Shown one piece after another: positions 1,118 through 3,165 of a DNA stretch of 64,000 nucleotides. The first letter of the stretch is position 1, and each line of letters begins with the position of its first letter. Source of the stretch: Lepisosteus oculatus (lineage: Eukaryota > Chordata > Actinopteri > Semionotiformes > Lepisosteidae); assembly GCF_040954835.1 (NCBI RefSeq), contig NC_090723.1:9310001-9374000 (forward strand), written 5' to 3'. A program made the position numbers and the translations under genes. Below the pieces are notes generated by a model, which was not told where the DNA came from, did not search any database, and worked only from the letters and a program-made list of their open reading frames with translations.

Positions 1118-3165
1118 TTATTCTGTCCGCTTTTCTTCCTCCTCTTCCCCGCTGGTTTGTGAGGAGTTGATCAGCTTGTTCTCCTTCTTCCATTTCATGC
1201 GGCGGTTCTGGAACCAGATCTTGATCTGCCGCTCGGTCAGGCAGAGGGCGTGCGCGATCTCGATGCGCCGCCGCCGTGTCAGATACCTGTTGAAGTGGAA
1301 CTCCTTCTCCAGCTCCAGCGTCTGGTAGCGGGTGTAGGTCTGCCGGCCCCGGCGGCCAGTGTTTCCGAAGACCGAGCCTGCCCAGGGCGAAAAGAAAAGA
1401 GACGAGTCACGCTCAATGGCCCAGAATTTAACGTGTTAATCACAGTAGTGAATGCTGCCGAAGAACGCCGACCAGGCTCGGCAAATCCTCACAGTCGTTT
1501 CGTTGCATTTAGTCAACTGCTGGCGAGTTTCTCAAAGCATGACGAAGCATTACTAACAAACTCCCAGTGACAGAACCGACTGTCCCCCCACCCCCCATCC
1601 TCACCTCTACAACGGCGCCTATCAGCGTTATTAGTAGGTATTTGCTAATATCGTAGTTTATCCACCTCCGTTTAAACAAACGTAAAGTTAGTCGTACTGG
1701 TCAGATACGACTTCCAACAATAAGGCGTTATACATCATCCTGACGCATGAAGCACACATTTGCGTGGAAACAAAATAAAGCCTTTTGTTGGAATCTGTCA
1801 TCTCTCCCACACGTGTCTGTGTCTTTCAGGAATAAAATCACGGCTGCCGTTTTCAGCCCACGCGCCTCTCGCCACCAGTGATACATCTCCGCATTTAAAG
1901 AATAATGAGTTCCATATTGATTAGTATAACTGTGCACATTAACGGATCTACCTGCACTTTATGTACAGTACTAATGGACATCAATTCGGTTCCTTTGAGC
2001 CAACAAACAATAAATCTAAACATGGAGACTATTAACTTTTTGATTAAGGAGGTCGCACTCAAACTAGCTGTAGATCAAAGATAAGAATTAACCAATGGCA
2101 AAGACTGGCGTGCCTGTATGTTGTGAAGTTTCTGAAAGTCGATTCCGACGTCCTCCTAAAAATACAATTTTGTTTTCGGGGGGGAGGGGGGGGGGATTTT
2201 GTTTTGCTTAGCCTCGCTTAACATTTCCACAGTAGCTGACGAGCACTAATAACGGCTTACATTAATAGCCCATTACAACAATGCCTTGTCTGAAATATCG
2301 TGTGAGGAGTGTTACTCCGCCGAAGCGACCAATTAAGCGACTACACTCTAGAATAAACATGTTCTCAAATTATTCGACGTACAGCTGTCCAATCCACGGG
2401 CAGTTCGAAAAAGCAGGTACGATTTTATTTTATTTTTTGACTGTTAAGTCCTGTCAGGAGAGTATTTTGGGTTTTATTTTTACAGCCAGTCCAAAAATAT
2501 CAAATAAGTAGGTGGACAACTGTAAATATGGAGGACAAGGCAGACTTTCTAAAGGCTATGTTTCCTCCAGCTCCAGCCTGGGGGGTGAGTTTAGACTAGT
2601 TCAGATTGCCAGGGACGCATTCTCTCCTCGCTGCGAAATCCCCCGACACAGTTCACTCCAGCCGTAACCGCCTACTGTAAAATCACAGCGCTGCTACACA
2701 ACCAGCGCAGCTGCATGAAAAATGAGAAGCTGACTCACCGTTGCAGGAGTTCATCCGCTGCATCCAGGGGTAGACCGGAGTGGGGGTCTTCTGCTCCTCG
2801 CTCTCAGCGAATATGTTTTTACTGTGCGCCGTGCAGTCCGCCTTCCGCGGCTCGGGGTTCGACCCCAGCGCGTGCTCCTCCAGGCTCGAGAGCGCACAGG
2901 CTGCGTCCTTGTCCCTGTAAAAACTGGCCGCGGCATAATCGCAGGCGGCCGCCGTACTCGTCCGGCCGTAGGCAGCGTTTGCCTGCTGGTAATAAGAGGA
3001 TGGATAAGCCTTATCCGGCACGCTTGTAGATCCATAGGCTGCGCCGGGGTAGTGTCTTAAAGGATCCGTGTATCCGGAGGAATATAACGGGATCTGTCCC
3101 AAGAAAGACTCCTGTCCGCCGGGCAGAGTCACTGGGAAAGTAGAGTTTACAAAATACGAACTCAT
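1118..3165 (-). CDS. hoxb6: Homeobox protein Hox-B6
   Basis: This is a nuclear homeodomain transcription factor of paralogy group 6 that patterns the trunk axis. The coding exons are 3165-2739 and 1377-1118, joined by a GT-AG intron (donor GTGAGTCA, acceptor GGGCAG) in phase 1, and give 228 residues, close to the usual length of about 224. The start is the conserved [18 protein letters not shown]. The PBX-binding hexapeptide VYPWM is at about residues 131-135. The homeodomain is at about 150-209, with recognition helix residues [11 protein letters not shown], and a short acidic tail EEEEEKRTE follows. It is the leftmost Hox gene in the window and has hoxb7 upstream. Homeodomain codons 4-54 are identical base for base to those of hoxb7, which suggests gene conversion. 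Identity as HoxB6 rests on the N-terminus and on its order in the cluster. Confidence 0.97.
1378..2738 (-). other. hoxb6: hoxb6 intron
   Basis: This 1361-bp phase-1 intron begins with GTGAGTCA and ends with CCCTGGGCAG on the minus strand. It contains a G-run-rich tract on the + strand at about 2178-2196 (C-rich in the transcript). No second gene or repeat is recognised. Confidence 0.9.

Follow-up and report, generated by a model that had tools for sequence, protein, structure and literature searches.

The question raised by this locus is why two homeoboxes of different Hox groups share the same nucleotides over nearly their whole length, synonymous positions included. The window, i.e. the whole stretch of DNA analysed (64,000 nucleotides of Lepisosteus oculatus; contig NC_090723.1, positions 9,310,001 to 9,374,000), carries on its minus strand the hoxb6 to hoxb10 portion of the HoxB cluster, and hoxb6 and hoxb7 separated before the origin of vertebrates. 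The features used below are as follows:

1178..1357, minus strand: hoxb6 homeobox, 60 codons, GC3 0.95
1190..1193, minus strand: three mismatches at the 3' boundary of the identical tract (hoxb6 AAA TGG, hoxb7 AAG TAC)
1194..1350, minus strand: identical tract, hoxb6 copy (157/157 match to 12952-13108)
2686..3192, minus strand: open frame with hoxb6 exon 1, splice site unmapped, likeness to hoxa6 exon 1 judged by eye
12936..13115, minus strand: hoxb7 homeobox, GC3 0.97, residue 56 Tyr (TAC, 12948-12950)
12952..13108, minus strand: identical tract, hoxb7 copy (157/157 match to 1194-1350)
16727..17173, minus strand: open frame with hoxb7 exon 1 (IYPWMRSTG), splice site unmapped, likeness to hoxa7 exon 1 judged by eye
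19485..19664, minus strand: hoxb8 homeobox, comparator, 28 of 180 bases unlike hoxb6
28283..28462, minus strand: hoxb9 homeobox, comparator
37724-37800: mir-196, Rfam match at the gathering threshold
40587..40766, minus strand: hoxb10 homeobox, comparator

Direct comparison of 1194-1350 with 12952-13108 showed identity at 157 of the 157 bases. In minus-strand reading, the first base of the tract is base 2 of homeodomain codon 3 and its last is base 2 of codon 55, with codons 4-54 whole. In the widened pair, 1175-1350 and 12933-13108 (176 bp), there are only three mismatches, at 1190, 1191 and 1193, all of them in codons 55-56 (hoxb6 AAA TGG vs hoxb7 AAG TAC), beyond which 15 further bases are identical (1175-1189, codons 57-61). 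The original prediction, made from the letters of the window, had given the 157 bp identity, the extension with its three mismatches and the span of codons 4-54, and all three proved exact. The two copies share their orientation and lie at a distance of 11,758 bp from each other. The window holds no third exact copy of the full 157-base string (two places only). Similarly, no third near-copy was found among the 35 places returned by a DNA search of the gar's own genome (1.2 Gb, 813 contigs), which misses divergent copies such as hoxa6; the next best match after the tract pair was hoxb8, at 87%. Over positions 1-17500, a repeat finder (seed 12, minimum 30) returned the 176 bp homeobox pair as the only direct repeat, along with one simple-repeat inverted pair.

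The names hoxb6 and hoxb7, also part of the original prediction, are upheld by the resemblance of their first exons, judged by eye in the same genome, to those of hoxa6 and hoxa7, respectively. Divergence outside the tract was observed as well: the first exons differ, the tails 3' of the homeobox are dissimilar, and the homeobox alone is homogenised. The Hox clusters lie one each on four contigs (HoxA on C10, HoxB on C31, HoxC on C1 and HoxD on C12), and no teleost-type second Hox set was visible in the DNA and protein searches of the genome. The protein search listed 89 places, and 150 of 153 candidates were scored; only Hox and four ParaHox genes were compared. The resulting set comprises 46 homeoboxes from the window and the same genome (42 Hox genes plus pdx1, pdx2, gsx1 and gsx2), leaving out hoxb3 and the homeobox-like hits in L031, L036 and L038, while L032 and L037 gave none. 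No related loci were found in the viral and genome contig collections scanned.

As the original prediction had proposed, we compared synonymous divergence in and out of the tract, here within this genome. Between hoxb6 and hoxb7, 19 of the 36 shared degenerate codons differ in exon 1 vs 0/49 in the tract (Fisher p 2e-9). Other paralogs do not show similarly low synonymous divergence in their homeoboxes: the shared degenerate codons that differ amount to 40/55 for hoxa6/hoxb6 and 26/55 for hoxa7/hoxb7; the figures are 25/57 for hoxa5/hoxb5, and 14/56 for hoxb8/hoxc8, both of which have a GC3 of 0.93. The synonymous sites of Hox homeoboxes in this genome are not frozen in general.

The GC3 of the hoxb6 and hoxb7 homeoboxes is 0.95 and 0.97, vs 0.70 and 0.71 for their first exons. 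Unrelated genes of high GC3 are also close to each other, with only 4 of 36 (hoxb1/hoxc3) and 5 of 40 (hoxb7/hoxc3) shared degenerate codons differing. Extreme GC3 thus leads unrelated genes to converge on the same codons, so that a control for codon usage is needed. Under nulls that treat codons as independent draws, the codon usage of the nine other homeoboxes with a GC3 of at least 0.90 predicts 16.4 mismatching degenerate codons in the tract, vs the 0/49 observed (log10 P -10.4), and that of the three homeoboxes with a GC3 of at least 0.95 gives a log10 P of -10.0. The most lenient null, the tract's own usage, predicts 12.5 mismatches (log10 P -7.8). Shuffling codons within amino acids never produced zero mismatches in 100,000 trials (minimum 2), and 50,000 codon-matched simulated pairs yielded no identical run longer than 83 and always at least 5 mismatching tract codons. 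With a gene-specific GC3 model, hoxb6/hoxb7 has a log10 P of -10.7 and a z of 5.45, the highest of 857 Hox pairs (from the 861 pairs of the 42 Hox genes, the 4 with fewer than 25 shared degenerate codons were dropped), the next being hoxa10/hoxb10 at 3.72. After that of hoxb6/hoxb7, the longest in-register run in any of the 1035 pairs of the 46 homeoboxes has 55 bases. It is also worth noting that hoxb6 and hoxb7 have in common codons that are uncommon in other GC-rich homeoboxes, namely AGG24 (0.10), TAT25 (0.075) and ACA27 (0.04). The identity of the tract surpasses the expectation from codon usage and is a genome-wide outlier after correction. With a GC3 of 0.95-0.97, identical synonymous sites are nevertheless less improbable than the original prediction had assumed.

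From these sequence comparisons, we propose that hoxb6 and hoxb7 very probably underwent interlocus (non-allelic) gene conversion confined to the homeobox, a reading with good support from the single genome analysed. A break in one homeobox would have been repaired by copying from the other, 11,758 bp off and in the same orientation, so that two homologous segments of about 180 bp would have exchanged information during break repair. The tract would fill the homeobox and end there, at the limits of the only homologous segment found between both loci; the lack of any other direct repeat of at least 30 bases between them would explain why it is limited to the homeobox. Several points count against conversion. 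The identity available for starting repair between diverged 180 bp homeoboxes would be low; the longest run common to hoxb6 and hoxb8 today is 35. Furthermore, the tract borders are close to the end of amino-acid identity, which constraint alone would yield likewise.

The latter point would also fit the explanation that there was no exchange at all, and that the two genes arrived at, or kept, identical codons through extreme GC3, codon preference or a constraint on the nucleotides themselves, such as an overlapping element. The high GC3 values and the closeness of hoxb1/hoxc3 and hoxb7/hoxc3 speak in its favour, and so does the existence in mammalian Hox genes of ultraconserved coding stretches without synonymous change, which the relevant passages of PMC2566984 place outside the homeobox. 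The same passages, however, describe synonymous substitutions in homeobox motifs at reasonably high frequency (PMC2566984). We regard this explanation as improbable, in view of the 16 mismatches expected when GC is matched and the 0 observed, the differences between the group-8 paralogs of equal GC3, and the uncommon codons common to both genes. As for an overlapping element, RNA folding of the tract is unremarkable (z -0.31), and Rfam at the gathering threshold returned mir-196 alone in the window, outside the tract.

It is still less probable that the identity was created in silico, one homeobox having been overwritten by the other during assembly or polishing. A length of 157 bp is about that of a short read, so that cross-mapping would have been possible, but each copy has distinct flanks, the window contains no N, the frames are open, and differences persist at 1 to 4 bases beyond the tract (1190-1193). 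Earlier differences at some 16 codons should, by inference, have kept the reads of the two genes apart, and no other pair among the 1035 homeobox pairs has an identical run longer than 55. Finally, a transcript or the DNA of one gene could have served as template in cDNA-mediated repair or template switching. The tract lies within exon 2, so that spliced RNA could serve, but it crosses no splice junction and bears no positive mark distinguishing such a route, which we consider extremely improbable.

Returning to gene conversion between the two loci, the age of the tract is bounded only, by the zero changes over about 35.7 synonymous sites, which keep dS under about 0.084 if the sites are neutral (Poisson, 95%). 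The substitution rates generally given for gars are low, and at such rates this dS would permit tens of millions of years. The original prediction of recent gene conversion as the simplest explanation is thus sustained as regards conversion (0/49 vs 19/36; z 5.45), whereas "recent" is covered by no more than this bound on dS. We infer repair copying as the process, a single event rather than repeated exchange, and a tract that is young relative to the age of the genes. Comparison of the codons of the tract with those of hoxa7, hoxc6 and hoxa6 (23/48, 22/46 and 34/47 shared degenerate codons differing, respectively) gave no signal as to which gene was the donor and which the recipient.

We also built a tree from 180 columns of 15 of the 46 homeoboxes (Hox4-8). 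It pairs hoxb6 with hoxb7 (support 87/91), in a topology where only 2 of the 12 inner branches have good support and the Hox5 group is likewise unrecovered. In this poorly resolved tree, neither a hoxa7 plus hoxb7 clade (cost of 5.7 log units, AU p 0.23) nor a Hox6 clade (3.7 log units, AU p 0.16) was rejected when enforced, which limits the conversion reading. General concerted evolution of adjacent Hox homeoboxes was considered and set aside, in that the 37 adjacent pairs other than hoxb6/hoxb7 are without clear excess when compared with same-cluster (p 0.23), same-group (p 0.84) and unrelated pairs (p 0.09); hoxb6/hoxb7 is therefore an isolated case, and conversion draws no support from a general process of this kind.

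A change-point test for mosaic homeoboxes covered the 202 Hox pairs that share 40 or more degenerate codons, with permutation for the ten pairs that gave the largest values. The best values, p 0.0065 for hoxa4/hoxb7 and 0.010 for hoxa10/hoxb10, are uncorrected, and none survives correction. hoxb6/hoxb7 is not one of these ten pairs; its lack of internal contrast in this test is due to the homogenisation of nearly the whole box. The second outlier by z (3.72), hoxa10 (L020) and hoxb10 (40587-40766), involves genes on separate contigs; 5 of their 37 shared degenerate codons differ up to codon 38 and 10 of 17 beyond it (p 0.010, uncorrected, 202 pairs).

A separate observation concerns residue 56 of hoxb7, which is Tyr (TAC, 12948-12950), whereas Trp occupies this position in the 10 other Hox5-8 genes read. 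The change from TGG to TAC takes two substitutions, and the AAG TAC found at codons 55-56 also occurs in hoxa3, hoxc3 and hoxd3. An identical run of 55 bases, which starts in codon 41, ends in codon 59 and spans AAG TAC, is common to hoxb7 and hoxc3; it is the second-longest run of the 1035 pairs and was matched in 70 of 50,000 simulations, so that a Hox3-to-hoxb7 transfer did not withstand correction for the number of pairs and was rejected as a finding. It is therefore only a tentative and rather unlikely suggestion that the 3' part of the hoxb7 homeobox had a Hox3 gene as its source (either hoxc3, which lies on another contig, or hoxb3 in the same cluster as hoxb7), the rest being then shared between hoxb7 and hoxb6. 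If this were true, Hox proteins would be mosaics in their DNA-binding domain, and exchange would reach past neighbours. For two peptides around Tyr56, a literature search gave no paper.

The Hox paralogy groups are commonly regarded as having evolved independently since before the vertebrates, and homeobox sequences serve for gene assignment and for the dating of duplications. With a conversion tract between neighbouring groups, it would be clear that one gene may have its homeobox replaced by the neighbouring gene's, and trees built on homeobox DNA only could then mislead. It would also provide a natural experiment, in a living animal, on whether the homeodomains of Hox6 and Hox7 can substitute for each other. 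In the part of the literature searched, there was no report of vertebrate conversion between different neighbouring Hox groups, or between hoxb6 and hoxb7.

Homeobox conversion itself is already known elsewhere, as in the Dlx genes of Capitella. The engrailed and invected genes, unlike hoxb6 and hoxb7, are not Hox cluster genes of different paralogy groups. This hexapod pair, mentioned as an earlier case of conversion, resembles hoxb6/hoxb7 in being a pair of homeobox genes with reported conversion (PMC3199776). In Capitella teleta, GENECONV identified a 150 bp conversion tract comprising homeobox and intron sequence in linked Dlx genes which, similarly to hoxb6 and hoxb7, are paralogs strikingly alike in the nucleotides of their homeoboxes (PMC3199776). 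The Dlx genes are tail-to-tail duplicates of one gene and their tract includes part of an intron (PMC3199776), whereas hoxb6 and hoxb7 are co-oriented members of two different ancient Hox groups and carry the tract within exon 2. Interlocus conversion of homeobox genes has likewise been tested and reported for mammalian TPRX1 and TPRX2, which, unlike hoxb6/hoxb7, are fast-evolving PRD-class genes with repeated conversion, studied in 34 mammals (PMC8208926). Among Hox genes, conversion was proposed as one explanation for hoxb6x and hoxb6y of the African butterfly fish; these are duplicates of one gene in two clusters, after the teleost genome duplication, whereas hoxb6 and hoxb7 are neighbours in one cluster (PMC4166920). 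More generally, conversion is estimated to account for a median of 7-8% of post-duplication codon substitutions in 164 duplicated teleost genes (PMC10503786), and it has been mentioned as a process that may act in clustered genes such as Hox (PMC6060901).

Several minor observations were made in passing. The homeodomain protein of hoxa6 (L040) is 97% identical to that of hoxb6, yet hoxa6 is absent from the places listed by the genome DNA search; the GC3 of its homeobox is 0.40 vs 0.95 for hoxb6. From hoxb6 to hoxb9, GC3 is 0.92-0.97 in the homeobox vs 0.59-0.71 in the first exons. A similar tendency is seen in hoxa7 and hoxc6 and, to a small degree, in hoxa5, and hoxa6 shows the opposite (0.40 vs 0.58), while HoxD homeoboxes have a GC3 of 0.40-0.65. 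GC-biased conversion or CpG-island effects could be the source of the high GC3 of homeoboxes. At 52939-53386, about 9 kb upstream of the hoxb10 exon 1 frame, there is a low-complexity repeat array of CA/TG type with 28 overlapping register copies. The HoxD cluster contains a hoxd2 homeobox (L043, contig C12), named from its sequence and the gene order. Pdx2 has been described as lost in ray-finned fish (PMC4471637); on contig C1, at about 78.5 Mb, a pdx2-like homeobox, so named from linkage and from its sequence as judged by eye, lies about 11 kb from a gsx2-like one (L033 and L034).
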